Made by a program: the position numbers and the translations under genes. The notes under the pieces were generated by a model that saw only the letters and a program-made list of their open reading frames with translations, was not told where the DNA came from and did no database searches. From the NCBI RefSeq assembly GCF_003363265.1, contig NZ_QRBF01000001.1:434001-498000 (forward strand): a DNA stretch of 64,000 nucleotides, given 5' to 3'. The stretch comes from Dyella psychrodurans. GTDB lineage: Bacteria > Pseudomonadota > Gammaproteobacteria > Xanthomonadales > Rhodanobacteraceae. Positions 41,563-59,762 of this stretch are shown piece by piece; within the stretch, counting starts at the first letter, position 1, and every line of letters starts with the position of its first letter.

Positions 41563-42369
41563 ATGAATATCAAAGGTAAACGCGTGCTCATCACGGGCGG
41601 GTCCAGCGGAATTGGATTCGCCCTCGCTGCGGCGTTGGGACATAAAGGCGCCCGACTCGTTATTACGGCGCGACGTGCTGACGCTATGGCGGCCGCGGTT
41701 GCCAACCTTAGGAACATGGGCGTGGAGTGCTCATCCGTTGTCGCAGATGTATCGACCGAAGCGGGCCGAGAAGCCACGGTTGCCGGAGCTATTGAGGCAC
41801 TCGGTGGCATTGATGTGTTGGTCAATAACGCCGGCGGTGTCCGCGCTGGAAAACTCGAGCTCACCACGGAAGCTGAAATTCGCGCGATGATCGAGGTGGA
41901 TCTCGTTGCCCCGATACTTCTGACGCGATTGGCACTCCCCCATCTGCGGGCAAACCCACCGGGGCTCATCGTCAATGTGACCTCGGGCATCGCGCTTATC
42001 GGGATGCCTTTCTATACGACGTACGCGGCCGCCAAGGCCGGCCTCGCCCGCTTTGGCGAAGCCTTGCGCCGAGAACTGACCGGAGACGGCATCCATGTCT
42101 TGACGGTTTACCCGAGCGCGACGGACACCCCCATGATGCGCACGTCGCACGCCGGTCCGGAGCTCGGCTTTACACGCGAATCGGCACACGACGTAGCGGA
42201 CGCCATCGCGGCGGGCATCGACGATGACGCATGGGAAATTATTCGGGGCGGTGAAGCGCGTTCGCAGATGATCGCACTCAACCGAGACAATCCCGCGGCA
42301 CTCGACGCTCGTTTCGCCGGTATCAAAGAAGCGCTTGCCGAAGCAGTGCGAGACCACACCGCATTGTGA
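41563..42369 (+). CDS. Short-chain dehydrogenase/reductase
   Basis: 268 residues from the ATG at 41563. Cofactor motif TGGSSGIG, NNAGG, active-site Ser in NVTSGIA and YTTYAAAKAG with the YxxxK pair. Classical SDR using NAD(P)H; arginine-rich turn (TARRADAM) suggests NADPH. The substrate is unknown. The stop codon overlaps the sigma factor start (TGATG), so enzyme and sigma factor are coupled under the TetR operator. This is an unusual front gene for a sigma/anti-sigma operon. Confidence 0.9.
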   Translation: MNIKGKRVLITGGSSGIGFALAAALGHKGARLVITARRADAMAAAVANLRNMGVECSSVVADVSTEAGREATVAGAIEALGGIDVLVNNAGGVRAGKLELTTEAEIRAMIEVDLVAPILLTRLALPHLRANPPGLIVNVTSGIALIGMPFYTTYAAAKAGLARFGEALRRELTGDGIHVLTVYPSATDTPMMRTSHAGPELGFTRESAHDVADAIAAGIDDDAWEIIRGGEARSQMIALNRDNPAALDARFAGIKEALAEAVRDHTAL

Positions 42370-42929
42370 TGGAGCGTGCGACGGTGTATTCGGAAGAAGC
42401 TCGATTAAAGGCATTGTTCATCAGCAGCCTGGACGGAGATGCCGTCAGCTATCGGCTCTTTTTAAGTGACTTGACGCGCTATCTGCGCGGTTACCTGCGC
42501 AAGCGCATACCCAAGATGCGCGAAGACATTGAAGATCTGATTCAGGAAACACTGCTAGCCGTGCACCACGCGCGGCACACCTATCGACCCGAAGAGCCGC
42601 TGACCGCTTGGATTCACGCGATAGCGCGGTACAAGTTGATGGATTTCTTTCGCACGCGTGCGCGCCGCGATTCACTGAATGATCCGATCGACGATCATCA
42701 GGAAATCTTTTCGTTGTCGGACGATGAGCCCGAAAATGCGCGCCGCGACATACGCACGCTGCTTAACTACTTACCCGACAAACAGCGTCTGTCCATCCTC
42801 CATGTTAAACTGCAGGGCATGTCCATCGCTGAGACAGCTACGTTGTTGGGACTTTCCGAGTCCGCCGTGAAGGTAAACGTGCATCGCGGCATCAAAGCGC
42901 TCGCCGCGCGGATGCGGGAGGCGCTATGA
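42369..42929 (+). CDS. sigF: ECF sigma factor (SigF-like)
   Basis: 186 residues from the ATG at 42369 in the TGATG overlap; a GTG at 42366 is possible. Region 2 (EDIEDLIQETLLAVHHARHT, LTAWIHAIARYKLMDFFRTR) and region 4 (MSIAETATLLGLSESAVKVN, VHRGIKAL) are clear. It overlaps nrsF by 4 bp, the known SigF-NrsF arrangement, where NrsF holds the sigma factor at the membrane until metal or redox stress. Its probable promoters are the nine GTAAC-N15/16-CGAA sites listed here. No such site is seen before its own operon. Confidence 0.92.
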   Translation: MERATVYSEEARLKALFISSLDGDAVSYRLFLSDLTRYLRGYLRKRIPKMREDIEDLIQETLLAVHHARHTYRPEEPLTAWIHAIARYKLMDFFRTRARRDSLNDPIDDHQEIFSLSDDEPENARRDIRTLLNYLPDKQRLSILHVKLQGMSIAETATLLGLSESAVKVNVHRGIKALAARMREAL

Positions 42930-43570
42930 GGACCGAAGACCTCGTCGAACTGCTGTCCACGGATATCGAACCGGTCAAGAAGGACGCGCTCGCGATTCTC
43001 GTGACGGGATCGCTGCTGGTCGCGCTGGCAGGAGCATTCGTGCTGATGGCAATCGCCTTCGGCATTCGGCCTGACCTCGCGAACGTTATCACCACCCCCA
43101 TTTTTTGGGAAAAGCTCGCCTTCCCGTTGAGCTTAAGCGTGGGCGCGGTGATCGCCACCAGCCGACTCGGCCGACCTGGAGCCTCAGTCGGCGGTGTGGG
43201 CTTGGTCTTCCTGATCCTGCCAGTGGTCTGTGTGTGGGCGGCGGGCACCGCAGTTGTATACGGGGCGGTGCCGGCTGATCGGGCCCTTGCCGTGTTCGGA
43301 CACACTTGGCGATCCTGCCCTTTCAATATTCTGTTGCTTTCCATCCCCGGTTTTATCGCCATCTTCTACGCCATGGCGCGCTTGGCACCGACGCGTTTGC
43401 GACTCGCGGGTGCCGTCTCAGGACTGCTTGCGGGAACCGTCGCGACCGTAGCGTATTGTTTTCACTGTCCTGAAATGAGCCCTGCCTTCTGGAGCATCTG
43501 GTACGTGCTCGGCGTGATGATCGTCGCCGCGACTGGCGCATTACTGGGGCCTCGGTTGTTGCGCTGGTAG
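42926..43570 (+). CDS. nrsF: NrsF-type anti-sigma factor (DUF1109), paralogue 1
   Basis: 214 residues with six hydrophobic segments. The cytosolic start RTEDLVELLSTDIEPVKK should bind the sigma factor. Both conserved cysteines are present: TWRSCPFNILLLSIP and AYCFHCPEMSPAFW (plus a preceding Cys and His). In Caulobacter NrsF these cysteines are required to sense heavy metals and release SigF. ATGA overlap with sigF makes this the cognate partner. Confidence 0.92.
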   Translation: MRTEDLVELLSTDIEPVKKDALAILVTGSLLVALAGAFVLMAIAFGIRPDLANVITTPIFWEKLAFPLSLSVGAVIATSRLGRPGASVGGVGLVFLILPVVCVWAAGTAVVYGAVPADRALAVFGHTWRSCPFNILLLSIPGFIAIFYAMARLAPTRLRLAGAVSGLLAGTVATVAYCFHCPEMSPAFWSIWYVLGVMIVAATGALLGPRLLRW

Positions 43571-43628
43571 CGGGCTGTTGTCCCCACCTTCCGTTCCGCA
43601 CCCTTTCAGGCTTGTATCGACTCGTTCG

Positions 43629-45230
43629 CTAACCGGCCGTGGCCGAAAGCTCTCTCGAAGCATGGTCTGAGTCCATGCCCCCATGAATCTGAAAGACACT
43701 GACCGCCTTGACCAGTCGACCAGCATCGCCTTCCAGTGCCCCCGCGGCGCTTGCTGTGCGCTGGACAAGCGAAGCATTCTGCTGCGTCGCTTTATCGAGG
43801 TCGGCAACAACCTGACTCACGTGCGCAATGGCCTCCGATTGCTCGGACGTGGCCACCGCAATGCGCCTCACCGTAGCCGTGACGCGTTCCACGGAGTTGA
43901 CGATCTGATTCATCGCGGTGCTCGCCTCTAACACCTGGTGCGCGCCCGACAAGACCGACTCACTCGAAGCTTCGATCAGCGTCTTGATCTCCTTGGCTGA
44001 TTGAGCGCTTCGCAACGCCAACGAGCGAACCTCGGTGGCCACGACAGCAAAGCCCTTGCCGTGTTCTCCGGCACGCGCAGCTTCAACTGCGGCATTGAGC
44101 GCGAGGATGTTCGTCTGAAATGCAATGCCTTCGATGATGTTCACGATATCAGCGATGCGGTTGGCATTCTCCGACACAACATCCATCGTCGATGCGACTT
44201 GAGAGACTTTCTCACTGCCAAGCATCGCATCCGCTCGCGCCTCGCTTGCCAAGGCGTCAGCCTGAAGTGTATTCGATGCATTTTGACGCACTGCCGCGGC
44301 CAACTGCCCCAAGGTCGTCGATGCTTGTTGCAGCGATGTCGCTTGTTGCTGCGTGTGGCCGGATAGTTTTCGATTGTCGCTTGAAATGTGCTGGATACCG
44401 TACGTGACGTCATTCGTACCCTGCCTGATCGTGGCAACGGTTTGCACGAGATCCGACTGCATGACGTTCAGTGCCGCAAAGAGCGAGCCGATTTCATTTT
44501 TCGCGCGATTCTCAATGGTCACGCTCAAGTTTCCCTTCGCAATGCGCTGAAAGGTGTGAGTCACCTCGCGCAAAGGCCGCAGGAGTATTCGGTAGATGAG
44601 CTGCGAGTAGAGGGTCATGAGAAAAATCGAAAGCGCGGCCATGCCTGCAGCCACATGGCCATTTCGAACGGCACGCGCATCCGATTGGGCTTTCAAGGCA
44701 TCGCGACGCTGCTTGGCCGCTTCGATGGCATCGCGCAACGTGGATTGAAAGGCAGAGTCCGCCTTTTCTGCGCCGCTCGTCGCGGCCACATAATCATTCA
44801 AGGAGACGTCATAAAGCGCCTCCTCGCGGGTGCCAAGGATGTCCGTGTACTTCGTATACGCATCGCTTATGCGATGAACTTCATCAGCGGCCGCATCGTC
44901 GCTGGAGACCTTGGCGCTCCAGGACTTGAAGATTTTATCGGCTTGCATACGCAGCGCCGACGCCCGACGCGTATAGTTTGTCGCCGCGATTTGGTTGCCA
45001 CGCTGAAGATTGATGTAAGCGTTATCCATGCTCACGAGCGTCGTGAGCAACAAGCGCTGTATCTCGTGCAACGGTTCGATGTCGGCGGTGGACAGACGGT
45101 CCAGCTCACTTATTGTCTGAGTCGCTTCTCGCGCGTCCGCCCAGGCTTGCGCTACCGACCACCATAGCGCCAGGGAAAACAACCCAAGGAACAATAGCAA
45201 CCACGCCCGTATCGTTAACTTCGCCAACAT
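43629..45230 (-). CDS. Methyl-accepting chemotaxis protein
   Basis: 533 residues: N-terminal TM ([20 protein letters not shown]), a periplasmic four-helix TarH-like sensor, second TM ([20 protein letters not shown]), HAMP ([19 protein letters not shown]), and a full signalling domain with the hairpin tip [20 protein letters not shown]. No C-terminal pentapeptide for CheR docking is seen. It lies 48 bp after DoxX on the same strand, so it could be read with the bufA1 operon, which would link the metal response to taxis. Confidence 0.93.
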
Positions 45231-45244
45231 ACTCCTTTCCCCTG

Positions 45245-45266: not shown

Positions 45267-45278
45267 TCCTTGATCGCG

Positions 45279-45758
45279 TTACTTGATGCCAAATACTTTG
45301 TCGAGCGACAACTTCCCGCCGCCCCGCCCAATGAGGTAGAGCATCAGTCCCGCCCACGACAAATGCGTCGGCCATGCATCGGGATACACGAAGACTTCGA
45401 TCACGGTGGTCATCCCTAACAGCGCCAGTGCGGCACCGCGTGTAAAGAGGCCGAGCACCAGGAGTAACGGAAAGAAGTGTTCGGAGTAGGCGGCCACATG
45501 GGCGGCGATCTCCGGGCGAACAAAAGGCAGTCGATAATCCGTCTGGAACAACTCGTACGTGCCAGGCTTCAGCGTCAGAAATCCCGTGACTTTGGTTCGC
45601 CCGGACAGGAAGAAGATGGCTGCAATCGATATGCGGCATACCAAGGCCAATAGCGAGTGGCTGATGAGGCGTGAAGCAAGATCGGCACCTTGGTTCCAGA
45701 CTACAAACCGTCCGCGAACACGCGGTGCGCCTGAGGTCACGGCACTTGCAATTTCCAT
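45279..45758 (-). CDS. DoxX family protein of the bufferin locus
   Basis: 159 residues from the ATG at 45758 (GGAG 8 bp upstream; a GTG at 45794 is possible). Membrane segments include [40 protein letters not shown] and [13 protein letters not shown]. The sequence SGRTKVTGF after TM1 is the DoxX signature. DoxX-type proteins (sometimes called BufD) often accompany bufferin genes. It lies 84 bp after bufA1, in the same direction. Confidence 0.85.
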
Positions 45759-45842
45759 GTCGAACTCCGGGATAGGCCTTGCGAGATAAATCACGTGCGG
45801 AGGATCCGAAGATCACTCCGCACCAGGTCCGATAGCGTTTAG

Positions 45843-46127
45843 TCAGGATGAGATAGGGGTCAGCGAACCGTGGCCTTTCGGGGTCTTGATCGACGCGCAG
45901 GTTCCGGCCGGCACGTTTTTCCAAGCGTTGCCCTGATAGTCCTTCGCTGCCGTGCCGGCGCAGGTCGTGCCGGCGCCCGCCTTGCAGTCGTTCTGGCCGG
46001 CCAAGGCTACGCCGTAGCACTTCTCCACCTTCTGACCACCGTCGTCGGAGGGCTGGGGCTGAGCGAAGGCGGTGGAAGCCAAAGAGGCAATGAGGATCGC
46101 AGTAGCGGAAAGCGTGATCTTGTTCAT
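45843..46127 (-). CDS. bufA1: Bufferin precursor BufA1 (DUF2282)
   Basis: 94 residues from the ATG at 46127. Signal peptide ([18 protein letters not shown]), then four cysteines: Cys37 ([11 protein letters not shown]), Cys48 (NDCKAGAG), Cys56 (TTCAGTAA) and Cys77 (GTCASIK). This is the DUF2282 four-cysteine pattern. Bufferins are ribosomally made peptides whose cysteines are modified to thiooxazole-type groups by a BufB/BufC enzyme and which bind copper in the periplasm. Its modifying genes are not adjacent but 1 kb away beyond an NrsF paralogue. It is preceded by a sigma-type promoter (46232-46257). Confidence 0.88.
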
Positions 46128-46231
46128 CGGACTGATTCCCTTGAGAGTAGATGTCAGTGACACAGCAGCAGTCTTCCTTCTCGTCACACTGAGTGTGAAA
46201 GGCGATATCTGCCAACCGGTTCGGGAGATAG

Positions 46232-46257
46232 TTCGAACAATTCGATGGCGTGGTTAC
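46232..46257 (-). promoter_or_regulatory. SigF-type promoter of bufA1-doxX(-mcp)
   Basis: Minus strand GTAACC-N16-CGAA, 105 bp before the bufA1 ATG. Agrees exactly with the motif known for the Caulobacter SigF regulon. Confidence 0.75.
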
Positions 46258-46338: not shown

Positions 46339-46365
46339 GTAACCTTTGTCGGCCATTGACCGAAC
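46339..46365 (+). promoter_or_regulatory. SigF-type promoter of NrsF paralogue 2
   Basis: GTAACC-N16-CGAAC, 90 bp before the ATG at 46455, divergent from the bufA1 promoter. Confidence 0.75.
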
Positions 46366-46454
46366 CAAACCCAATAGACCTTCTCTTTCCTGAGCCGAAA
46401 ATCCTCAGGGAAGATTCGCATTAGGTGGATGGTGGACATCGTGCGGAGATGCGC

Positions 46455-47096
46455 ATGAAAACGCGGGACCTGGTTTCCAGACTGGCTGACGATCTGGTTC
46501 CCATTGAGCCCAATGCCGTGGCAAAACGCATTGGGCGAGCCCTCATACAAGGCCTGACAGCAAGCACCATCGTGCTTGTTGCGCTTTACGGCGTACGAGG
46601 AGATATGCCAGCCATGATGGCGACACCACTCTTCTGGCTCAAACTCATGTTTCCTCTTGCCATCATCGTGCCGGCACTCAAACTGGCAGAGCGACTTGGA
46701 CAACCGGGTGTTCCAACAAAACGAGCGTGGATGACGGTCCTGCTGCCCATACTCACACTCTGGCTGGCCGCCGCGATCATCCTCTTGTTCACACCACGCG
46801 GCTATCGCCTGCAACTCATGCTGGGGTCGACGTGGCGGGTTAGCACGCTGAACATCGTGCTTCTTTCGCTACCGCCACTGGGCCTGGCCATGAAATCCAT
46901 GAAGGGACTCGCCCCGCCCCATCTGGCGCTGGCAGGGGCCGGCGTCGGGTTGCTGGCTGGCGCAGAAGGCGTACTGGTATATACGCTTTACGGCGTTGAA
47001 ATGTCGGTCCCCTTCTGGGGCATCTGGTACGTATTGGCGATCGGAATCACCACCGCCATCGGCGCACTCCTTGGCCCGCGACTTTTGGATTGGTAA
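46455..47096 (+). CDS. NrsF paralogue 2 lacking the sensor cysteines
   Basis: 213 residues from the ATG at 46455 (GGAG 8 bp upstream). Six membrane segments and the sigma-binding start (KTRDLVSRLADDLVPIEPN) are kept, but both sensor sites are changed: TWRVSTLNIVLLSLP has Ser-Thr where the others have Cys-Pro, and YTLYGVEMSVPFW has YGVE where the others have HCPE. It therefore should not sense metals through cysteine. No sigma factor gene is adjacent. It splits the bufferin locus, being convergent with bufC1. It may be a constitutive brake on the sigma factor or partner another one. Confidence 0.85.
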   Translation: MKTRDLVSRLADDLVPIEPNAVAKRIGRALIQGLTASTIVLVALYGVRGDMPAMMATPLFWLKLMFPLAIIVPALKLAERLGQPGVPTKRAWMTVLLPILTLWLAAAIILLFTPRGYRLQLMLGSTWRVSTLNIVLLSLPPLGLAMKSMKGLAPPHLALAGAGVGLLAGAEGVLVYTLYGVEMSVPFWGIWYVLAIGITTAIGALLGPRLLDW

Positions 47097-47126: not shown

Positions 47127-47900
47127 TTAAGAGACCGCGTCACGCACTTTGATTTCGGCAATGGCGCCTGCCGTCAGCAACGTGGACACGCACTGACCAA
47201 GATCCATTTCCGGTTCGCGTTCCAGTGCCCGCCGGGTAGCGGATTCGAGGTCACATTCGGCGGCACATGCGTCCAGGAACGCACAGGCACCGATCGAAAG
47301 CGGCTGCCACACGACGTTGCTAGAAGGCCTAAGGAGCAAAGCCCCCTCACCTTCCCAAACGAGATCGTCAGGAATATCCGCGCCTTCGCGATTGGCTCGC
47401 CAGATGGTGTATGCGGGTTCATCCGCGAACCAATGCCAGCGCGCGCTCGGATGCACGCGAAGCGTGGCTCGCTCCGCCTGTTGCGGCGGCCACGCTGTCA
47501 AATCGATCACCGTTACATGCCGGTCATCGGGTGCGACATGTGCCTCTACCCAAGAGTAATCGAGTCGAGCGACGTTGGGCAGATAAGATAAGGACTTTGC
47601 GGGCTCGAACGAAGCCAGAAAATCAGGAAAGTTCTGGCCATAGCGCAACAGCCGCGTCTCCGTCGGCGGTGATAGGCTGACGTATTCGGCGGCCGCGGCG
47701 CGAAACCAATCCTCGCCCACGAGGCGCACGACGGCTGGGAAGTTCGCTTCCAGCGCATCCACGCAGCCTTGGAATACGGTATTGCGGTACACCGCAAACC
47801 CCGGTTGGTCCATCAAGGCCACCACCCGGCTGTCATGAGGCACCCTACCGTAGAGGGCGTCAACAAACGCATCCTGAAACGAGGCCAATGTAGCTTTCAT
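47127..47900 (-). CDS. bufC1: Bufferin maturation partner BufC1 (DUF2063)
   Basis: 257 residues. N-terminal DUF2063 helical domain (LASFQDAFVDALYGRVP, GFAVYRNTVFQGCVDALEAN, FPAVVRLVGEDWFRAAAAEY) and a C-terminal winged-helix-like part. Its start overlaps the bufB1 stop in ATGA. MbnC/BufC-type proteins bind the precursor and form a heterodimer with the DUF692 iron enzyme. Confidence 0.88.
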   Translation of the reverse strand: MKATLASFQDAFVDALYGRVPHDSRVVALMDQPGFAVYRNTVFQGCVDALEANFPAVVRLVGEDWFRAAAAEYVSLSPPTETRLLRYGQNFPDFLASFEPAKSLSYLPNVARLDYSWVEAHVAPDDRHVTVIDLTAWPPQQAERATLRVHPSARWHWFADEPAYTIWRANREGADIPDDLVWEGEGALLLRPSSNVVWQPLSIGACAFLDACAAECDLESATRRALEREPEMDLGQCVSTLLTAGAIAEIKVRDAVS

Positions 47901-48754
47901 GCCATCGCGTCCATCGATATCCTGCGGTCCAACAAAGATTGCGCCTGCTGGCGCTCGCCGAGCAGAACATCGAACTCCGGCACCTGACCGTCGCGCTCAA
48001 TCAACGTAGGACGAGGGCCGATCCGATCGATCAAGTATCGATACAGGTGCCACACGCCCTCGTTGATCGCGGCGTCATGAGAGTCGATCCATAGCGCGCC
48101 ATTGGCGTCGACGCTGTGCCCCGCCAAGTGGATCTCCATGACGGCATCGGACGGGATGGCATCAAGATAGGCGATAGGATCGATCGGAAGATTGTGCGCG
48201 CTGACGAATACATTGTTGATGTCGACCAGCAGGCCACACCCCGTGCGACGGATGACCTCTCTAAAAAAGTCGCTCTCGCTCCAGTCATGCCCTGTAATGG
48301 TCAGATAATGCGTCGGATTTTCGATCGCAATCCGACGTCCCAGCGTGTCTTGGGTTCGACTGATATTGGCGGCCACCCTTAGCAATGCGTCCTGCGTACG
48401 CGGAAATGGCAACAAGTCCGGGTGGTAATGATCCCGCCATGCTGACCATGCCAGGTGCTCCGACACCAGGGCCGGTTCAACACGATCGATCAAGGCCTTC
48501 AGTCGCTGCAGATGCGTAGCATCGGGCTCCTGCTCTGCGGCGAGCGACAGCGATACCCCGTGCAGCGACAAAGGGTGGCGTCCCCGAATCATTTCAAGCC
48601 ACGCAAGCCGCGGACCGCCGTCAACCATGTAATTCTCAGGGTGAACTTCAAACCACAGTTCACCCTGCTCCACCGCGTAGGCGTCTTCGTAGTGCTGGGG
48701 CTTCAAGCCAACGCCAGCTCCGAGAGCGATGTTTGTATGGCGTGGCGAGATCAT
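47897..48754 (-). CDS. bufB1: Bufferin-modifying iron enzyme BufB1 (DUF692, MbnB-like)
   Basis: 285 residues from the ATG at 48754; a longer frame to 48880 adds a cysteine-rich stretch unlike the family. TIM barrel with the DUF692 metal ligands: LSLHGVSLSL, VSEHLAWS, IAIENPTHYL, LLVDINNVFVSAHN, MEIHLAGHS and DSHDAAI. DUF692 enzymes are multinuclear iron oxygenases that convert cysteines to heterocycles. Coupled to bufC1 by ATGA. Its own sigma-type promoter lies 61 bp upstream. Confidence 0.9.
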   Translation of the reverse strand: MISPRHTNIALGAGVGLKPQHYEDAYAVEQGELWFEVHPENYMVDGGPRLAWLEMIRGRHPLSLHGVSLSLAAEQEPDATHLQRLKALIDRVEPALVSEHLAWSAWRDHYHPDLLPFPRTQDALLRVAANISRTQDTLGRRIAIENPTHYLTITGHDWSESDFFREVIRRTGCGLLVDINNVFVSAHNLPIDPIAYLDAIPSDAVMEIHLAGHSVDANGALWIDSHDAAINEGVWHLYRYLIDRIGPRPTLIERDGQVPEFDVLLGERQQAQSLLDRRISMDAMA

Positions 48755-48814: not shown

Positions 48815-48840
48815 TTCGCATGGATGCGCTCCTTGGTTAC
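48815..48840 (-). promoter_or_regulatory. SigF-type promoter of bufB1-bufC1
   Basis: Minus strand GTAACC-N16-CGAA. Confidence 0.75.
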
Positions 48841-48884: not shown

Positions 48885-48910
48885 GTAACCTCCCGTGCCC
48901 CTCGCCGAAC
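48885..48910 (+). promoter_or_regulatory. SigF-type promoter of NrsF paralogue 3
   Basis: GTAACC-N15-CGAAC, divergent from the bufB1 promoter; one base shorter spacer than most. Confidence 0.65.
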
Positions 48911-49076
48911 TTGAACACAGTGGTGGCATGAAGGATTTTACGGACGCGTCCATCACGGATCCTTGCCATGCGCCAAGGCATTCATGAGGTCGCTCGTATG
49001 ACGGGTCGGACACCAAAAGATGCCCTCGGCGTTTCGTTTCATCACCGCCATGAATACTGCCGCCGGTCCCGATGCC

Positions 49077-49718
49077 ATGAACACTGACGCCCTCGTCTCG
49101 CTCCTCGCTACGGACATTGCGCCTGTGCGTGGAGACACCGTCAAACGATACCTGACTGCATCGTCATTGCTGGCATACATCGGTGCGTCCGTATTCGCGC
49201 TGGTCGGCTATGGACTGCGGCCGGACATGGCGATCATGCTGGTTACACCCCTCTTTTGGCTCAAGCTCGCCCTGCCGCTATCGCTGGCCGTTGGCGCATA
49301 CATGATGCTCGAGCGGTTGGTTCGACCTGGTCAGGCCGTCGGACGCAGATGGAGTGGCATCGCGATGCCTGTCCTGGCCGTGTGGTTGGCGGCTGTGATC
49401 GTGCTTTGGGAAGCACCTCCCACCCTTCGCGCCTCGCTGCTCATGGGCAAAACGTGGCGCACTTGTCCGTTCAACATCGCACTCTTGTCGGTGCCGTGTC
49501 TTGTCGCTGTGCTCTTCGCCGTTCGGCAACTCGCACCAACGCATCGCTCCATAGCGGGTGCTGTCGCCGGTTTGCTCGCAGGGGCCATCGGTACGCTCGC
49601 TTACTGCCTGCACTGCCCGGAAATGGGCGTGCCGTTTTGGGCCACCTGGTATCTGCTCGGGATGGCGATCCCCACCGCAATTGGTGCACTGCTTGGCAGG
49701 CATGTAGTGCGTTGGTAA
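49077..49718 (+). CDS. NrsF-type anti-sigma factor, paralogue 3
   Basis: 213 residues from the ATG at 49077, matched to the starts of the other two paralogues (NTDALVSLLATDIAPVRGD); ATGs at 49020 and 49050 are in frame. Six membrane segments. Both sensor motifs are intact: TWRTCPFNIALLSVP and AYCLHCPEMGVPFW. No sigma factor is adjacent. A SigF-type promoter precedes it, so it may add negative feedback when SigF is active. Confidence 0.87.
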   Translation: MNTDALVSLLATDIAPVRGDTVKRYLTASSLLAYIGASVFALVGYGLRPDMAIMLVTPLFWLKLALPLSLAVGAYMMLERLVRPGQAVGRRWSGIAMPVLAVWLAAVIVLWEAPPTLRASLLMGKTWRTCPFNIALLSVPCLVAVLFAVRQLAPTHRSIAGAVAGLLAGAIGTLAYCLHCPEMGVPFWATWYLLGMAIPTAIGALLGRHVVRW

Positions 49719-50082
49719 ACCATGCCGATGAGGTCGCGCACCTGCGCCGCGCATTCCGCAAATCCCCCGATACATACCTGTAGCAAGGGATTCGCCAAGG
49801 CGATACGCATGTCTTCGTCATCCGTGGAAGCAGTACGCCTCAGCACGCCAACAATCAATGCACACCTGATTCGCCGGCATAAAGAAGTTACAGCGCCTAC
49901 GACGACATGGGTCTCGTAGACAGAGTCTGCGCGATGTGTAGAAATTTTGTGACGATGGTACACACGTCACGAAAAGCGCAATTCGTCGCCCGTCGATGTA
50001 ACCAAGATGCTCTTTCCCCGAAGTAACCAGTCGTGGCAACGCATGTTGCCGCAACCATCTATGCTTACATCGAGGAACAACC
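49719..50082. promoter_or_regulatory. Upstream region of the beta-propeller gene with SigF-type promoter
   Basis: 364 bp without a gene. GTAACC-N15-CGAAG lies at 49998-50023, 60 bp before the propeller ATG. A second gtaacc at 50023-50028 has no partner. The rest shows nothing. Confidence 0.65.
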
Positions 50083-51132
50083 ATGAAAAAGGCAATCTAT
50101 GGATCGGCGCTGCTCGCGCTGATGGTGGCAGGTGCCGTCCATGCACAGACCACCAATGGATGGAATAACGGCGATCTCATCGTTACCTCATCAAACGCTG
50201 CGAGCAATGAGTTGCTCGTGTACAACACGCAAGGGACGTTGATCGAGCAGTCCAAAACCGGCGGCGCCGGCGGCGTCACGGGCAATGCCGGCGGTATCGC
50301 GCAAAATCACGATCTTCTTGCCGTCGTCAACTTTGGATCGGGCAACGTTTCGATCTTCCAAAAGGGCGGTGATCGCGTCCCGTTGCAGTTGCAGAAGGTC
50401 GTACCTGCCATTACCAATCCGGTGAGCGTCGCGTTCGGCCGCAATCATCTTTACATCCTTACTGCCACCCACATCGAGTCGCATCCGATCGACCGTTACG
50501 GCGTAAGCGCCCAAGCCGACGGTGAAGCGCAGCTTGCTATTGCAGACGGTTCCGCAGCTCAAGTGGGCGTCCTCGGCGGACAGCTGATTCTTACCGAAAA
50601 GAGCAACGCCATTGAGACAGTCAATCTGACCGACCTAGGCGCCGTGTCGGGCTCCACGAAAGTGGTCGCCAACATCCCTGCCAACGTCAACACACCTTTC
50701 GGGCTTGCAACACGCGGCAATGACGCATACGTGACCATCGCACACTCCGACGAGATCAGCCTGGTGCGTAACGATGCGGTCCTGACGGTCACGGGTTCCG
50801 GTACGCAAACGGCACCCTGCTGGGTGACGCTCGACGGTCCATTCCTGTTCACGGCCAACCCGCCCAGCCACTCGGTGTCCCGTTATACGGTTTACGGCCA
50901 GAAGATCATCCAGAGTGCGGCGGTGGTGGCAACCCTCAACGGCAACCCGACCGACATCACCTACCGCGATAACCTCGCCGCCGTGGTTGATGCCAGCGGA
51001 TCAGTCTCGCACGTGTCCATTTTCGACGTGGACGGGGAAGGCAACTTCAATCTGAAGAATAGCGTCACCATCAACAGCGCGGCGACCAACGGTATTGCCA
51101 TCGTTCGGAACGACGACAATTTCAACTATTAG
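50083..51132 (+). CDS. Secreted beta-propeller protein
   Basis: 349 residues with a signal peptide (KKAIYGSALLALMVAGAVHA). The mature part repeats strand patterns of a six- or seven-bladed propeller of the lactonase/YVTN type (GDLIVTSSNAASNELLVYNT, DLLAVVNFGSGNVSIFQKGG, DAYVTIAHSDEISLVRNDA, GPFLFTANPPSHSVSRYTVY). A single cysteine. The function is unknown. Its SigF-type promoter places it in the metal/oxidative stress response. Confidence 0.8.
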   Translation: MKKAIYGSALLALMVAGAVHAQTTNGWNNGDLIVTSSNAASNELLVYNTQGTLIEQSKTGGAGGVTGNAGGIAQNHDLLAVVNFGSGNVSIFQKGGDRVPLQLQKVVPAITNPVSVAFGRNHLYILTATHIESHPIDRYGVSAQADGEAQLAIADGSAAQVGVLGGQLILTEKSNAIETVNLTDLGAVSGSTKVVANIPANVNTPFGLATRGNDAYVTIAHSDEISLVRNDAVLTVTGSGTQTAPCWVTLDGPFLFTANPPSHSVSRYTVYGQKIIQSAAVVATLNGNPTDITYRDNLAAVVDASGSVSHVSIFDVDGEGNFNLKNSVTINSAATNGIAIVRNDDNFNY

Positions 51133-51231: not shown

Positions 51232-51258
51232 GTAACTTCTCGTCCGACGGGAACGAAC
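51232..51258 (+). promoter_or_regulatory. SigF-type promoter of the YkgJ-like gene
   Basis: GTAACT-N16-CGAAC, 28 bp before the ATG at 51286. Confidence 0.65.
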
Positions 51259-51285: not shown

Positions 51286-52077
51286 ATGTCCGATCTCAAT
51301 TTCAGCTGCACGCAATGCGGCAAATGCTGCCATAACCTAAGACTCCCACTCACGTGCCAAGAGGCTGTCGCCTGGCTGCAGCGGGGTGGCAACGTCGAAC
51401 TGCTGTGCGAGGCGGTTCCCTGGGTGGTTGAACCCGCGGCATCAGATGCCTTGGCGATGCATAAGCGTCAACGCTCCTTTCCCGCCTGGAGCGGGGAGCT
51501 TCCCATTCGTGTCATCGTCGTACTCGCAGCGACGTTCAAGGGTGCCTGCCCTCACCTTGGCAGCGACATGCGATGCGGCATCTACGACAGCAGACCGCAT
51601 GTTTGTCGCATTTACCCAGCCGAAGTGAACCCCTTCCTATCCTTATCGCCCAGCCATAAACAGTGCCCGCCGGAAGCGTGGACCTCCCCTACTCCTTTTG
51701 TGCGTGACAACCAGGTTGTGGACGCGCAGACGCAGCTGCATATTTCACTGCTACGTCATGGCGACCAGCTCGATATAGCGGTCAAGGCGTGGGCCTGCGA
51801 AGCATTGGATATCCAGAGTGCGAGCCTGTCGAATGAAGGGTACATGGCTCACTGCCCTTCCTCCGAAGCGCTCCTGTCCGTATTGCAGCAAACTCCCTCC
51901 ATCGCGGATGGCAGGTCGTCGCGTAGCCAATGGTCGATGGTGACGAATCAAGCCGCAACGTTTGATGCGCTATGTTTGGCCGGTGCAAAGTCCATGTACG
52001 CGAGCGCATCCGCAGACGGACCATCTCGTTACCTGGGCTTTCGTCCCGATGCCCCACTGCAGGAGCAACTGGCTTGA
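51286..52077 (+). CDS. YkgJ-family cysteine-cluster (Zn/Fe) protein
   Basis: 263 residues. N-terminal CTQCGKCCHNLRLPL cluster, then GACPHLGSDMRCGIYDSRPHVCRIYP, the CxxCxxCC…C…C…RPxxCRxYP pattern of YkgJ proteins, which bind zinc or iron. The C-terminal 110 residues are extra and not recognised. Directly behind a SigF-type promoter and 41 bp ahead of a secreted hydrolase gene. Confidence 0.85.
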   Translation: MSDLNFSCTQCGKCCHNLRLPLTCQEAVAWLQRGGNVELLCEAVPWVVEPAASDALAMHKRQRSFPAWSGELPIRVIVVLAATFKGACPHLGSDMRCGIYDSRPHVCRIYPAEVNPFLSLSPSHKQCPPEAWTSPTPFVRDNQVVDAQTQLHISLLRHGDQLDIAVKAWACEALDIQSASLSNEGYMAHCPSSEALLSVLQQTPSIADGRSSRSQWSMVTNQAATFDALCLAGAKSMYASASADGPSRYLGFRPDAPLQEQLA

Positions 52078-52118: not shown

Positions 52119-52898
52119 ATGCGTCCGGTACTCGTTCTTATCGCGTCCGTGCTTCTCGCCCTAAGCAGCATGACGACATCCAGGTTTGCCACGGCGGCCA
52201 CCACGTTGTCGTCTCCGGCCATAGCGATGTCAAATGTGACCTTCAAAGCGAGCGATGGCGTGGAGATTTATGGCAGGTACTACCGTGCGGCCTCGCCACG
52301 CGCGCTGATTGTGCTTTTTCATCAGGCCCATTCCAGCAAAGACGAATATAAGACCATTGCCCCGCGGCTCGCGGCGGCCGGATATAGCGCACTGGCCATC
52401 GATCAACGTTCCGGCGGCAATCTTTATGGTCCCAATCAAACGGTTGAAGCACTAGGGCATTCCGCAGACTATCTGGATGCCCAGCGCGATCTCGAAGCCG
52501 CCCTCTCATTCGCTGAAACGCAGAAACTTCCCGTCATTCTCTGGGGTAGCAGTTATTCCGCGTCGCTGACCGTGGTGGTGGCTTCGGAACACGTCAATGA
52601 GATCCGCGCCCTAGCCGTTTTCTCTCCCGGCGAATATTTTGACCAATCTCCCACCATGATTCGCACCGCCGCGGCGAAAATCACCGTTCCATTCTTTGTC
52701 ACTTCTTCGAAAGACGCCGAGGAGATCGCCGCGGCTAAAGCCATTCTGGCTGCCTCGCCCTCGACACTGAAGGTTCAGTATGTTCCAACCACCGGCGGCG
52801 TCCATGGATCATCCACCCTGATCAAAAGTCGCGATCCCGAGGGCGCCGAAGACAATTGGAAGGCCATCCTGGGGTTCCTTTCGCGACTTAATCTCTAA
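52119..52898 (+). CDS. Secreted alpha/beta hydrolase
   Basis: 259 residues from the ATG at 52119 (aacaggag upstream). Signal peptide (PVLVLIASVLLALSSMTTSR, ending near TAAT). Dienelactone-hydrolase-like fold with LIVLFHQAHSSKDEY, ILWGSSYSASLTVV (nucleophile serine) and GGVHGSSTL with the likely histidine. The substrate is unknown. Probably co-transcribed with the YkgJ-like gene. Confidence 0.8.
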   Translation: MRPVLVLIASVLLALSSMTTSRFATAATTLSSPAIAMSNVTFKASDGVEIYGRYYRAASPRALIVLFHQAHSSKDEYKTIAPRLAAAGYSALAIDQRSGGNLYGPNQTVEALGHSADYLDAQRDLEAALSFAETQKLPVILWGSSYSASLTVVVASEHVNEIRALAVFSPGEYFDQSPTMIRTAAAKITVPFFVTSSKDAEEIAAAKAILAASPSTLKVQYVPTTGGVHGSSTLIKSRDPEGAEDNWKAILGFLSRLNL

Positions 52899-55156: not shown

Positions 55157-56089
55157 ATGTCGACGACCTTAAGTTCCATCAATCTCAATCGCTTCGCCGT
55201 CTTCGTTGCGGTGGTAGAGGCCGGATCACTCACGAGGGCGGCCTCGCGTCTTGGCATCGCCAAAACGATGGTGAGTGCACACCTGCAGCGACTCGAGACA
55301 GAAATCGGAGCGAGCCTTCTGGTGCGTACGACGCGAAGGCTTCACCTCACCGAAGCAGGCGAAATGTTCTATGAGGCTGCCCGGATAATCGTTCGAGAAG
55401 CCGAAGAAGCCGTCAACGCGATTGGACAGAGCGCCAACAATCCACGAGGCACTTTACGGATCACCGCCCCCGTTGACTATGGAGCTACTGTGATAGCTCC
55501 GCTGGCGATAGCCATGCAGCAGCGGTATCCGGCGCTTAAGATTGATTTGCTGACAGGAGACAGACTCTTTGATCTGATCGCAGAGGGCATCGATGTCGCG
55601 ATACGCCTTGGGCGTTTGGCCGATTCGACTCTGCAAGCCGTGCAATTGGGACGTGTGGAAGAGTGGCTTGTCGCGGCTCCGGGTGTTCTGCCAGCCAAGA
55701 TCAAGACTACAAGTCCGAAGGACCTGACCGACTTGCCATTCATTGGCCTGTCGATACTCCCCCGCCCTACCACATGGCGATTTGAACGAGATGGACAGAG
55801 CAAACAGACCGTGACGTTTTCCGCATCTTTCACAGTCAATACGGCCCACGCTGCACGTGCGGCCGTGCTTGCCGGCGGCGGCCTGGCTGTTCTGCCAGAT
55901 TTCTCGATCGCTCAAGATGTGGAAGAAGGTCGATTGGTACGGGTGTTGCCGAAATGGAAGTTGCCGGGAGGCGGCATCTTTGCCGTGTACCCCATGGCCA
56001 AGTTCAGGCCACAAAAAATTCGGGTCTTCGTGGACGCGCTTAAAGCGGAAATAGAACAATCAGGCAGAGGTGTGTCACGTGTGCGGTGA
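55157..56089 (+). CDS. LysR-family transcriptional regulator
   Basis: 310 residues from the ATG at 55157; a GTG at 55145 adds 4 residues. HTH SLTRAASRLGIAKTMVSAHL followed by the linker helix and a full effector domain (ITAPVDYGATVIAPLAIAMQ, GIDVAIRLGRLADSTLQAVQ) of the DsdC/PecT-like CrgA branch. Probably controls the divergent hydrolase pair. Confidence 0.9.
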   Translation: MSTTLSSINLNRFAVFVAVVEAGSLTRAASRLGIAKTMVSAHLQRLETEIGASLLVRTTRRLHLTEAGEMFYEAARIIVREAEEAVNAIGQSANNPRGTLRITAPVDYGATVIAPLAIAMQQRYPALKIDLLTGDRLFDLIAEGIDVAIRLGRLADSTLQAVQLGRVEEWLVAAPGVLPAKIKTTSPKDLTDLPFIGLSILPRPTTWRFERDGQSKQTVTFSASFTVNTAHAARAAVLAGGGLAVLPDFSIAQDVEEGRLVRVLPKWKLPGGGIFAVYPMAKFRPQKIRVFVDALKAEIEQSGRGVSRVR

Positions 56090-56148
56090 CGTGACATTAC
56101 ATCACTGATCATGCATCGAACGTAGCAGCCGAGTGGTTACTTGTCCGA

Positions 56149-56898
56149 TCACCCAATCGCAGCGACAAGCCCTTCGGCCACCCATGCTGCCAGGAATTCT
56201 CCCGCCGCAGAGGCGCCGTGATTATCCCCGAGAAGGTGAGCGAGATTGCCGCACAGTTCGGCGAACGATGCACCATTCGAGACGTGATTGAGCGCGCGCA
56301 TTTCAAGCTCATCGATCGTTTGGAAACGGCAACGATGCCCTTCTCGCCAAACCCGAATGGCCGCCACGTCCGCGAAGTATTCGACGGCGGGAGGCACCTT
56401 TTCGGACGCCATTGCGGACCATAGCGCACCGCAATTGCTCCGCACGGCGAACACACGCAGGGTTGGCACGAAATGGATCCTGGCGTGGTCCCAGTCGATA
56501 TCTTTGATCATCGTTTCGGTAGTTACCGCCATGCCGTCCGGACCATCAAACGCGCGACGCAGGGTCCAATCCAACAACGCCAATTCTCCGACTTCGGGGC
56601 TATCGGGATAGAGCGCATCCAGCGTGTCCGCAAAGTGCGCACCGTAGTCACTGATCGTCCAGCTGACGGGTGGATGGGTTTCGATGTAACGACGCACGCC
56701 ATCATGAAACTGGTCATCTCCCAACCATGCCCAGGTACGCTCAAAGGTTTCACGCATGCACTCTTCCAACTGAGCGCGGTAGGCGTGATGGTAGACAGCC
56801 AACCCCGGAGTAGCGCCTGTGGGGACGTACTGATCGAGGACGTTGGGACCGTCCACCAAAAAGGAGCAAAACTGTCGCTGCATGTCCAGGAGGCTCAT
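56149..56898 (-). CDS. bufC2: Bufferin maturation partner BufC2 (DUF2063)
   Basis: 249 residues from the ATG at 56898, in an ATGA overlap with bufB2. DUF2063 start (LLDMQRQFCSFLVDGPNVLD, GLAVYHHAYRAQLEECMRET, FERTWAWLGDDQFHDGVRRY). Divergent in sequence from BufC1 and of the type that pairs with six-cysteine BufA2 precursors. Should recruit the BufA2 precursor to BufB2. Confidence 0.88.
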   Translation of the reverse strand: MSLLDMQRQFCSFLVDGPNVLDQYVPTGATPGLAVYHHAYRAQLEECMRETFERTWAWLGDDQFHDGVRRYIETHPPVSWTISDYGAHFADTLDALYPDSPEVGELALLDWTLRRAFDGPDGMAVTTETMIKDIDWDHARIHFVPTLRVFAVRSNCGALWSAMASEKVPPAVEYFADVAAIRVWREGHRCRFQTIDELEMRALNHVSNGASFAELCGNLAHLLGDNHGASAAGEFLAAWVAEGLVAAIG

Positions 56899-57746
56899 GC
56901 GAAACACTCCTCCGACTGACACGCTGCGGAGGCCACCGTTCGCGCGATGTTCAATTCATCGAGCAATTCGCTCAGCGGCGGGATATTGTCGTCGCGCTCA
57001 ATCATGCTCGCGACCGAACCAAATCGTTCGCAGGCTGCACGGTAAACGGACCACACTGCGTTAGGGACAGGCTGATCGTGTGTATCGATGAGGCGATTCT
57101 CTCCCTGACTGTGACCGGCCAAATGCATCTGTCTCACATAGCCCTTGGGAATAGCAGAGAGGTACTGGTAGGGATTAAAGCCTTGATTGACGCCACTCAC
57201 GTAAATGTTGTTGACGTCCAATAATAAATAGCACCCTGCCCGGCGACACAATTCGGCGAGAAACTCTGGCTCGCTGTAGTCGGCCTGTGAGTAGCTCAGA
57301 TACGTCGAGGGGTTTTCCAGAAGAATCGGCCGCTGCAGGAAATCCTGCACCTGATTCACGTTGGCGCAGGCCACATCCATGGCCTCATTCGTGTAAGGAA
57401 GTGGGAGCAAGTCATGGGAGTTGAATCCGCCCACACCTGTCCAGCACAGGTGATCGGAGACCCAAAGCGGCTGTATGCGCTCAGCCAGGTCTTTCAACCG
57501 CCGAAGATAATCGAGCTTCAGCCCGTCGGCCGAACCAATCGACAATGACACACCGTGCATCGCGACGGGATAGTGCGCCCGTACTGCTTCCAGAATGGCG
57601 AGCGGCTTGCCTCCTTGCACCATGAAGTTCTCGGAAATTACCTCGACAAAATCGACCGAAACTTGGCCGTCAAGGAATTCCTGGTAGTGCACAGGGCGCA
57701 AACCTAGGCCGAATCCTTCGAAAGCAGGTAAGTCAAGCGTACGCAT
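56895..57746 (-). CDS. bufB2: Bufferin-modifying iron enzyme BufB2 (DUF692)
   Basis: 283 residues from the ATG at 57746. DUF692 motifs: VAMHGVSLSIGS, VSDHLCWTG, PILLENPSTYLSY, YLLLDVNNIYVSGVNQG, RQMHLAGHSQG and DTHDQPV. Same multinuclear-iron TIM barrel as BufB1 but clearly a separate subfamily. It sits 54 bp after bufA2 and is coupled to bufC2. Confidence 0.9.
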   Translation of the reverse strand: MRTLDLPAFEGFGLGLRPVHYQEFLDGQVSVDFVEVISENFMVQGGKPLAILEAVRAHYPVAMHGVSLSIGSADGLKLDYLRRLKDLAERIQPLWVSDHLCWTGVGGFNSHDLLPLPYTNEAMDVACANVNQVQDFLQRPILLENPSTYLSYSQADYSEPEFLAELCRRAGCYLLLDVNNIYVSGVNQGFNPYQYLSAIPKGYVRQMHLAGHSQGENRLIDTHDQPVPNAVWSVYRAACERFGSVASMIERDDNIPPLSELLDELNIARTVASAACQSEECFA

Positions 57747-57800
57747 AGTGAATTCCCAGAAAAGAGAGCCCAACTGTAGGGAGCAGTCGGGCTCTGACGA

Positions 57801-58076
57801 TCACTTCGACGGAGCGGTCAGGCTGCCACCGGCTGCGTGGCATGCGCTGGCTGTCAAGTCTTTGAATCCTTGGCCCTTGCAGGAGTTCTGGCCTTTGCAA
57901 GCGTGATCGCCCGATTTGCAATCGGATTGTCCTTTGCACGCATTGACGCCGTAGCACGGCTGCGCCTGGTCGCCCGCCGCGGGCGACGCATGGGCCGGGC
58001 TCACCTGAGCGAGGCTGGCAAAAGCGATGAAAGCCGCGGCGGCCGCGAGGCTGGTACCACTGGAGAGCTTGATCAT
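57801..58076 (-). CDS. bufA2: Bufferin precursor BufA2 (six cysteines)
   Basis: 91 residues. Signal peptide (LAAAAAFIAFASLAQVSPAH, cleavage near AS). Cysteines at 41, 47, 53, 60, 66 and 79 in the pattern CYGVNACKGQSDCK, HACKGQNSCKGQGF and SACHA. The six-cysteine core with CKGQ repeats is the BufA2 type. Expected to bind copper after cysteine modification by BufB2/BufC2 in the same operon. Confidence 0.9.
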   Translation of the reverse strand: MIKLSSGTSLAAAAAFIAFASLAQVSPAHASPAAGDQAQPCYGVNACKGQSDCKSGDHACKGQNSCKGQGFKDLTASACHAAGGSLTAPSK

Positions 58077-58126
58077 GGGACAACTCCTACGTTGAAAGAA
58101 TGGGATGCCGTGATGGCATGGGGGAG

Positions 58127-58152
58127 TTCGTCGTCTTTTCTGAAGAAGTTAC
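58127..58152 (-). promoter_or_regulatory. SigF-type promoter of bufA2-bufB2-bufC2
   Basis: Minus strand GTAACT-N16-CGAA, 51 bp before the bufA2 ATG. Confidence 0.68.
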
Positions 58153-58273
58153 ACGGCACCCACAATCGACATGCCTGCAAGCAGGGCCGGAAGCGATCCC
58201 ACCTTTTGCACACCATCGATTGCTGTGTCACGGCACTGAGCATGTACTGCATCGGCCATGGGCCATTCGTCAT

Positions 58274-58300
58274 GTAACGACCGACAAGCGAGGCACGAAC
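58274..58300 (+). promoter_or_regulatory. SigF-type promoter of the metallopeptidase gene
   Basis: GTAACG-N16-CGAAC, 64 bp before the ATG, divergent from the bufA2 promoter. Confidence 0.6.
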
Positions 58301-58363
58301 ACTAACGAAGGGTTTTCTTTCTTGAGATAGGCCCGGGATATCGGCTGTGATCGCGGAGGTGAC

Positions 58364-59335
58364 ATGAAACGTCGGCGCTTTCTCCAATGGGCAGGTGGCT
58401 TGACCATCGCCGCATCGTCACCCTTGCGTGCTATCGCGCAATCCGATGACGATCCGCAGGACATTTACAACAGGCTGAAGCAATCACTCGATCTTCGTTT
58501 CGTTGTAGCAGGCGGAAACATCGATGTCGCCATTGCTGGAAATGCCTCCCCTCTCGACAAACACCGTATAGAAGTGTGGATACGCAGAAGTGCATCGGCC
58601 ATCGCGGCCTATTTCGGGCGCTTCTCCGTAGCGCATTGGAGCTTGCTCGTCACACTTAACGAAGGTGACCACATCGGTCCTGCTACAACCTGGGGACATC
58701 CAACATCCATGACGCACATCGCGTTGGGGCGAAACGTCAGCGAGAGCGCCCTGCACGATGACTGGGTGATGGTGCATGAAATGACACACCTGGCACTCCC
58801 AACACTGCCGCAACGCAATGCGTGGTTTATGGAGGGCAATGCGACGTACGTTGAACCCATTGCTCGCGCGCAATGGGGACAACTCACGCCGCAAGAGGTG
58901 TGGCGATGGGCCGTCGACGATATGCCCAAGGGACAACCGCACGACGGCGACGAAGGGCTCGATCACACCCATACCTGGGGCAGGACTTACTGGGGCGGCG
59001 CCATGTACTGGCTGCTTGCCGAAATTGCCATCTATAAGAACAGTGGTGGCCGATATCGCCTTCAGGACGCACTACGGGCCATCCATAGCGAAAGTGGCGG
59101 CAACACGTCATTTTGGAGCGTGGAGCAAACCATCCTCGTCGGAGACGCCGCCGTGCAAGGCGATACTCTGAGTTCGCTTTACCGAGAACTCAAGGATCGC
59201 CCAGTGGCGATTGATCTCCATGGCGCACTCCAGCAATTGGGCATTTCGGAAGTCGATGGTGCTATTCGCTTTGACGATCGTGCGCCGCTTGCCGAACTTC
59301 GACGTTCTATTACAACGCTACAAGCTCCAACGTAA
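58364..59335 (+). CDS. Exported gluzincin-type zinc metallopeptidase
   Basis: 323 residues. Basic start MKRRRFLQWAGGLTIAASSP suggests a Tat-like or Sec signal ending near AIAQ. The zinc site is VMVHEMTHLALP (His138, Glu139, His142) with the third ligand Glu157 in WFMEGNATYVEP, spacing typical of gluzincins (M1/M61-like). It is divergent from the second bufferin operon and has its own SigF-type promoter, so it may process BufA2 or clear metal-damaged periplasmic proteins; neither is proven. Confidence 0.85.
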   Translation: MKRRRFLQWAGGLTIAASSPLRAIAQSDDDPQDIYNRLKQSLDLRFVVAGGNIDVAIAGNASPLDKHRIEVWIRRSASAIAAYFGRFSVAHWSLLVTLNEGDHIGPATTWGHPTSMTHIALGRNVSESALHDDWVMVHEMTHLALPTLPQRNAWFMEGNATYVEPIARAQWGQLTPQEVWRWAVDDMPKGQPHDGDEGLDHTHTWGRTYWGGAMYWLLAEIAIYKNSGGRYRLQDALRAIHSESGGNTSFWSVEQTILVGDAAVQGDTLSSLYRELKDRPVAIDLHGALQQLGISEVDGAIRFDDRAPLAELRRSITTLQAPT

Positions 59336-59384
59336 CTCAGTTAAAGCTTCTCCCTACTTTCGTCTGACCGTTTGCGAAAGAGTT

Positions 59385-59411
59385 GTAACCCCGAGACATC
59401 GGCAAACGAAG
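59385..59411 (+). promoter_or_regulatory. SigF-type promoter of a short transcript
   Basis: GTAACC-N16-CGAAG, a full match to the motif, in a region without an annotated gene. Confidence 0.72.
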
Positions 59412-59470
59412 TGACTCAGCAAACCATTACCAAATCCTTCGTAAGGAAATAGGACAACCGCATAGCTGCG

Positions 59471-59599
59471 ATGTCTGCAAAGCCCCAGCCGTTTGCCGCG
59501 TGGACTTTAGTGCCTGCCGTGACTCATGAGCCTGAGTTGACGGTCCTGCGGGATGTTCCGGAGCCCCGGACATCCCCTTTGATGGCTGAGTCGACGTAA
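59471..59599 (+). CDS. Possible 42-residue peptide within the short transcript
   Basis: Frame from ATG at 59471 reads MSAKPQPFAAWTLVPAVTHE and ends LMAEST with a stop at 59597-59599. The nearest purine-rich site (aaggaaatagg) is about 20 bp upstream, too far for a normal start, and the frame runs through the hairpins. Low confidence as a gene. Confidence 0.25.
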   Translation: MSAKPQPFAAWTLVPAVTHEPELTVLRDVPEPRTSPLMAEST

Positions 59600-59638
59600 C
59601 GATACTCCCACCGTTACGCCGGCCCAGCCGTCTTTTTT
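59584..59638 (+). terminator. Strong rho-independent terminator
   Basis: GGCTGAGTCG…CGGCCCAGCC outer stem (one mismatch, one wobble) enclosing CGTAACG…CGTTACG, followed by seven T at 59632-59638. Confidence 0.8.
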
Positions 59639-59762
59639 TGTTCCCATCCGTTGGGCTGTGCTCTTTCGGTGCGAGCCAACGCGAGGTGGCCTGAAACGTC
59701 ACAACGGTATCTGATCACGTCCGGAGGAACCCAGTTACATAAGGACCATGCTTAAAGAGGGT

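Follow-up and report, generated by a model that had tools for sequence, protein, structure and literature searches.

A bufferin-rich gene cluster that is probably an accessory part of an ECF16 envelope stress regulon in Dyella psychrodurans

The stretch of DNA analyzed here, hereafter the window, comprises 64,000 nucleotides (nt) of the Dyella psychrodurans genome (G000:C1:434001-498000, where G000 denotes this genome). It contains a cluster with genes for an extracytoplasmic function (ECF) sigma factor, three NrsF-type anti-sigma proteins, two sets of bufferin genes and several poorly described proteins, together with repeated copies of one promoter motif. An exact search of the window for GTAAC-N15-17-CGAA returned ten sites, two with a spacer of N16 and the others of the N17 class (GTAAC-N16/17-CGAA), against a chance mean of 0.99; none of 100 shuffles reached ten. 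Nine of these, including three divergent pairs within the cluster, had been proposed in an earlier sequence-only reading of the same DNA and were recovered as exact matches at the places named, while a tenth, ending 31 nt upstream of msrB, had been overlooked. In window positions, the ECF16-type promoters, all exact matches to the motif, are:

32171-32196, plus strand: tenth site, before msrB (identical site before msrB in G001, another Dyella genome)
46232-46257, minus strand: before bufA1 (kept in D. flava)
46339-46364, plus strand: before nrsF2 (kept in D. flava)
48815-48840, minus strand: before bufB1C1 (kept in D. flava)
48885-48909, plus strand: before nrsF3 (kept in D. flava)
49998-50022, plus strand: before the propeller gene (conserved in the family)
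51232-51257, plus strand: before ykgJ-hydrolase (conserved in the family)
58127-58152, minus strand: before bufA2B2C2 (kept in D. flava and G001)
58274-58299, plus strand: before the metallopeptidase gene (kept in D. flava)
59385-59410, plus strand: site without a gene

Judged by its letters, the motif is the promoter published for ECF16 (SigF). The consensus in print is (T/C)GTAAC-N17-CGAA (PMC8315932), and this form is found at the targets: among 20 chosen sites, GTAAC is preceded by T in 16 and by C in 3. The earlier assignment to the Caulobacter SigF type agrees with the search pattern used in that organism, GTAACC-N16-CGAA (PMC3511200), and with the DUF692/DUF2282 targets reported there. 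The nine cluster sites fall within 17.3 kb, where 0.13 would be predicted from the rest of the genome, and the ten window sites compare with a prediction of 0.47 per 64 kb; the clustering over 17 kb, already claimed from the sequence, is thus not due to chance. As a rough background, the motif occurs at none of 17 genes in window positions 1-31000, in 186 of 3626 stretches of 310 nt and at 113 of 691 called genes, the last two rates being taken from loci that were fetched for the motif or its genes. The genes of the cluster, and msrB, are the following:

32228-32659, plus strand: msrB, methionine sulfoxide reductase B (PF01641, E value 1.2e-46)
42366-42929, plus strand: sigF1, ECF sigma factor with regions 2 and 4 (PF08281, PF04542; NCBIfam PRK12536 subfamily above cut-off)
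42926-43570, plus strand: nrsF1, NrsF/DUF1109 anti-sigma (PF06532, E value 3.7e-67; cysteines at 131 and 181 among others)
45279-45794, minus strand: DoxX-family protein, downstream of bufA1 (PF07681)
45843-46127, minus strand: bufA1, bufferin precursor, DUF2282 (PF10048 on the longer open reading frame 45843-46187; the ATG preceding the signal peptide was chosen as start by eye)
46425-47096, plus strand: nrsF2, NrsF paralogue without cysteine (PF06532, E value 2.7e-61)
47127-47900, minus strand: bufC1, DUF2063 (PF09836)
47897-48754, minus strand: bufB1, MNIO bufferin maturase (NF050167 above cut-off, PF05114 on a longer open reading frame; start set by eye downstream of the promoter)
49020-49718, plus strand: nrsF3, NrsF paralogue with both sensor-type cysteines (PF06532, E value 4.4e-69)
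50083-51132, plus strand: secreted-looking beta-propeller, lactonase-like (weak match to PF10282, E value 9.9e-06)
51286-52077, plus strand: YkgJ-like CxxCxxCC protein (PF03692, E value 1.9e-09)
52119-52898, plus strand: alpha/beta hydrolase, probably in the ykgJ operon (PF12146; order kept in D. flava and G001)
56149-56922, minus strand: bufC2, DUF2063 (PF09836, E value 8.7e-20)
56895-57773, minus strand: bufB2, MNIO bufferin maturase (NF050167 above cut-off; PF05114)
57801-58076, minus strand: bufA2, bufferin precursor (NF050166 above cut-off)
58364-59335, plus strand: metallopeptidase-like protein (HEMTH and a downstream E found by eye; weak twin-arginine translocation signal, TAT_signal E value 0.06)

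Family models agree with the bufferin identities first proposed for bufA1, bufB1C1 and bufA2B2C2: BufB1 and BufB2 score above the cut-off of NF050167 and BufA2 above that of NF050166, and bufA1, which matches no NCBIfam model, is identified by DUF2282 only. A survey of bufferins places sigma and NrsF genes with Buf1, not Buf2, clusters (PMC12452194). The present locus shares bufA, MNIO, DUF2063 and DoxX genes with the Buf1 and Buf2 clusters but differs in that its Buf2 operon carries an ECF16-type promoter. The genome also holds a third bufferin-type operon (bufA2-like, MNIO, DUF2063; L211:1812-3849, corresponding to G000:C11 at about 130.8-132.9 kb), and the sole exact motif in that fetched stretch sits between the end of the operon and an AraC-type gene. 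Between nrsF1 and the DoxX gene of the window lies a chemoreceptor gene (MCPsignal, HAMP; 43629-45230), which is kept there in D. flava.

The beta-propeller, YkgJ and metallopeptidase genes had been put forward as new members of the regulon, and their promoters recur in relatives. Among 147 genomes of the family, 18 have a full-length propeller gene, 19 genes in all since this genome has two (six partial or weak rows omitted), and 18 of the 19, this one included, are preceded by an exact motif 60 to 98 nt from the start; start codons of homologues were taken from alignment ends. The same is true of 10 of 16 YkgJ genes at 24 to 46 nt, again including this one and omitting one weak row. For the metallopeptidase, 7 of 12 loci including this one are motif-led, three with the motif immediately before the gene or at its estimated start, which is uncertain in one case, and four as the second gene of a motif-led operon, after a hydrolase (twice), a thioredoxin or a DUF1223 gene; families were confirmed for one hydrolase, the thioredoxin and the DUF1223 gene, and loci L162-L179, at 32% identity or less, were left out of the count. 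The second metallopeptidase copy of this genome is also motif-led. On these promoter counts, membership of the propeller and YkgJ genes in the regulon is strongly supported and that of the metallopeptidase is supported. The metallopeptidase-like protein has no Pfam domain over cut-off, and structure predictions were set aside because mean pLDDT (predicted local distance difference test) scores were 35.8 for the propeller (2 sequences) and 35.4 for the metallopeptidase (1 sequence). A literature search at title and abstract level, in which subscription journals are thinly covered, found no propeller, YkgJ or metallopeptidase among ECF16 targets and no cysteine-less NrsF.

Elsewhere in the genome, the motif precedes dipZ and, divergently, a second sigF-nrsF operon (SigF2, contig C9, hereafter the core pair), as well as ccdA and a divergent thioredoxin gene, a second propeller, the second metallopeptidase, a DUF1223 protein and a catalase-family protein. 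Because the site falls within the called N-terminus of the DUF1223 and catalase-family genes, a later start is assumed for both. Further putative sites are C11:130811 (before the AraC-type gene), C9:343959 (MAPEG) and C14:71304 (a small protein without a Pfam match). The position L031:352-1557 holds a catalase-family protein near an exact motif. With dipZ, ccdA, thioredoxin, msrB, DUF1223 and catalase-like genes behind the motif, which point to defence against thiol and methionine oxidation, the original label of a copper or metal stress response is too narrow.

D. flava keeps eight of the nine cluster sites, with spacers that have changed, and has three more between the propeller and nrsF3 (L100:13774-18056). 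One of these is at the start of a DUF1223 gene, one lies 17 nt upstream of a gene for an FMN reductase, and one precedes an ATP-grasp/luciferase-like pair at a distance of about 305 nt. G001 has the metallopeptidase, bufA2B2C2, ykgJ-hydrolase and msrB grouped within about 5.5 kb that contain four sites, and the ccdA/thioredoxin site pair is kept in three more Dyella genomes (G007, G010, G012). Such recurrence could in principle reflect shared ancestry of upstream DNA instead of function, and some homologues are indeed close, but this is very improbable, since GTAAC and CGAA are constant from genus to genus around spacers that differ, and gene order varies, as where ykgJ adjoins msrB in G001.

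The ECF16 systems already described share much of this content. The SigF-NrsF system of Caulobacter crescentus, induced by copper, chromate and cadmium, has the GTAACC-N16-CGAA motif, NrsF cysteines 131 and 181, bufferin-type DUF692/DUF2282 operons and methionine sulfoxide repair, its copper-induced regulon holding the DUF692/DUF2282 genes and MsrPQ (PMC8224329). Caulobacter is described with one sigF-nrsF operon, whereas Dyella has two sigF pairs and three nrsF genes in one cluster, one of them without cysteines, and adds the propeller, YkgJ, hydrolase and metallopeptidase. Bradyrhizobium EcfF-OsrA is likewise an ECF16 sigma with a DUF1109 anti-sigma, and its targets include a cytochrome c biogenesis (DsbD-like) protein, a periplasmic thioredoxin and Msr (PMC3420878); it differs in its induction by hydrogen peroxide and singlet oxygen and in that the targets named in the available portion of the report include neither bufferin nor propeller, several being given only as 'hypothetical'. 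Brucella BcrS-AbcS shares the ECF16 class, the promoter, an Msr system and hypochlorite, but a methionine-rich peptide is named there and the available portion of the source does not mention bufferins. Sinorhizobium RpoE7, also ECF16, controls, through TGTAAC...GCGAAT-type promoters, a DUF692/DUF2063 operon that is divergent from the sigma gene; it differs in having few targets and promoter fusions that are not induced by peroxide, cadmium or chromate.

Taken together, the cluster is likely to belong, as an accessory portion rich in bufferins, to an ECF16 (SigF/NrsF-type) envelope stress regulon that responds to metal and oxidation. The observations beneath this reading are promoter sequences and their conservation, gene families, cysteine loss and low ratios of nonsynonymous to synonymous substitution (dN/dS) within Dyella; from them we infer which sigma factor is in charge, what the inducers are, that there is feedback and what the proteins do. 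Several points weigh against it. Across the whole genome, the exact pattern GTAAC-N16/17-CGAA occurs 43 times and its reversed control 69 times, and of the 33 matches outside the window 23 fall within open reading frames as called by a simple script. The motif is therefore not enriched overall and a bare match carries little meaning; we rejected the bare motif as proof of membership. The exact motif is absent from the examined place in 6 of 16 YkgJ, 5 of 12 metallopeptidase and 1 of 19 propeller loci. No motif was found upstream of the sigF1 gene, unlike its counterparts in Caulobacter, Brucella or the core pair, and two sigma factors could share or split the sites. Cysteine mutants that lose inhibition, C129S in Bradyrhizobium and those in Caulobacter, speak against NrsF-2 as a working brake.

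The sigF1 product has sigma-70 regions 2 and 4 of the ECF type, and its gene overlaps nrsF1, whose product carries the DUF1109/NrsF domain (PF06532). The local SigF had been taken as the controlling sigma, with a regulon beginning at 42369. The nine sites stand as placed, but a scan of window 41001-42400 and of the corresponding D. flava stretch, with up to one mismatch allowed, gave no site upstream of the SDR-sigF1-nrsF1 row, and the local SigF is only a candidate for the controlling role: the genome contains the second, motif-bearing pair, and G001, with one core-type NrsF match, keeps four sites. SigF1 and SigF2 share 33% identity over 178 residues. Upstream of core-type nrsF a divergent site pair was present in 25 of 25 loci (L075-L099; flanking genes checked in G000, G007 and G003), and window-type NrsF was found in 4 of 61 genomes (G000, G007, G025, G026), which marks the local cluster as accessory and the core pair as common in the family; in the same survey, the sigma and NrsF of a bufferin 1 cluster in G058 stand closer to the core pair. 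It is a substantial possibility, if somewhat short of even, that core SigF2 is the main sigma for most of the promoters and that sigF1-nrsF1 serves bufferin 1 only, or another signal. The lack of a motif before sigF1 in the scanned stretch fits this, as do G001, where the bufA2, metallopeptidase, ykgJ and msrB sites persist, and the single core-type NrsF match in each of nine propeller genomes (G001, G004, G005, G006, G010, G011, G014, G028, G036; the propeller of G014 is the one without a motif). In Pseudomonas, Burkholderia and Herbaspirillum loci, however, sigF1-type genes adjoin bufferin 1 operons with the same motif, so that sigF1-type sigmas very likely read it.

Candidate post-transcriptional features were found at two of the window promoters:

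50033-50052, plus strand: hairpin in the propeller mRNA leader (covariation in the leader alignment)
59418-59640, plus strand: candidate small RNA (predicted long 3' stem, then a T run)

Leaders of 19 propeller genes (18 motif-led plus D. flava; L116, a propeller without motif, was left out) fold into two hairpins, the first of which is missing from the window leader. Pairing was evaluated on 13 named pairs, after the 12 of RNAalifold, in a structure derived from the same alignment, which favours it: 92.6% of cells were paired, against at most 55.6% with slid partners, and 9 of the 13 pairs showed a two-sided change in some row. In 500 shuffles, neither the pairing nor the covariation score was ever reached, and the number of further pair types was reached three times. 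The alignment indicates that the propeller mRNA has a covarying leader hairpin, which is new here. The short RNA, proposed as a further member from its promoter, is retained as a candidate only. Its 223 nt fold with a z score of -4.00 (0 of 200 shuffles) and contain a 42-codon open reading frame without further support. The gene-less promoter may well be a chance match or relic above ordinary intergenic or terminator DNA, an alternative that we place a little below even: the segment has no match in 146 other family genomes and no relative after the metallopeptidase gene in D. flava or G001, its 3' stem was not called by a simple terminator scan, and matches outside the window tend to lie in open reading frames, as counted above. 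Against this stand the position of the site inside the cluster, the T before GTAAC and the strength of the fold. No Rfam family matched the window, short transcript and leader included, at the gathering score.

The three NrsF proteins of the window all exceed the Pfam NrsF cut-off and fall short of the NCBIfam equivalog NF042994 (cut-off 300 bits), with 126.3 bits for NrsF-1, 98.8 for NrsF-2 and 136.9 for NrsF-3. NrsF-1 and NrsF-3 have the two conserved cysteines and NrsF-2 has none; cysteines 131 and 181 of NrsF-1 bear the numbers of the two conserved in Caulobacter (PMC3511200), a match by numbering, not by alignment. In a tree of 35 rows, from which the NrsF-2-like gene of Herbaspirillum L189, cut short where its contig ends, was left out, NrsF-2 groups with proteins of Trinickia, three Burkholderia, Caballeronia and the second Dyella (support 100/99, the bootstrap not being fully settled). 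Cysteine 131 is lost in all seven members of this clade, the first-site cysteine being kept in the other 28 rows, and cysteine 181 is lost in three of the seven, two of which are the Dyella pair; this clade, read from aligned sequences, is new here. A cysteine-bearing NrsF lies in the same stretch in the window and in five of the six fetched NrsF-2-clade loci, the exception being Caballeronia L183, and in all five Burkholderia, Caballeronia and Trinickia loci the NrsF-2-clade gene follows DoxX in a motif-led bufferin row. In L183, ccdA-thioredoxin and the bufferin row are divergent and each has motif sites, an arrangement that unites core and accessory parts. Across 369 genomes of the class, NrsF-2 matches were found in eight, including this one, and cysteines were read in two of them only (L202, L204).

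The role of NrsF-2 has precedents in both directions, as Bradyrhizobium OsrA becomes stress-blind with C179S but fails to inhibit with C129S or the double change (PMC3420878), and in Caulobacter both single changes and the double change derepress (PMC3511200). A non-inhibitory protein, decoy or adaptor, in place of a brake, is accordingly conceivable, at about one chance in three: OsrA C129S fails to hold EcfF and Caulobacter C131S/C181S derepresses. Selection on nrsF2 argues the other way, with a dN/dS of 0.10 against D. flava, below the 0.21 of nrsF1, as does the presence of the well-supported clade across Dyella, Burkholderia, Caballeronia and Trinickia. A further idea, in our view rather unlikely as a whole, is that the clade was retained behind an ECF16-type promoter as a second, stress-blind anti-sigma which limits or terminates the response, with a sensing and a non-sensing inhibitor sharing one sigma and with the small RNA and structured propeller leader adding post-transcriptional control.

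If the cluster is an accessory part of an ECF16 envelope stress regulon, membrane-bound NrsF proteins would hold the sigma factor in the resting cell. Sensing of copper, other thiophilic metals or oxidants would fall to cysteines in the core NrsF as well as in NrsF-1 and NrsF-3, and would lead to release of the sigma. It would then direct expression of the bufferins, which would bind metal, and of the repair and redox genes msrB, dipZ, ccdA, thioredoxin, DUF1223 and catalase-like, along with the propeller, the YkgJ-hydrolase pair and the metallopeptidase, which are probably further envelope repair or metal-handling factors. Since nrsF2 and nrsF3 stand behind the same promoter, delayed negative feedback may follow, in which cysteine-less NrsF-2 may be a brake that stress does not switch off.

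Through this arrangement, poorly described families, namely the propeller, YkgJ with its hydrolase partner and the HExxH protein, become predicted members of a stress regulon in one bacterial family, and a Buf2 operon is placed behind an ECF16-type promoter. NrsF-2, a paralogue stripped of its cysteines by evolution, may offer a natural experiment on the function of the NrsF cysteines.

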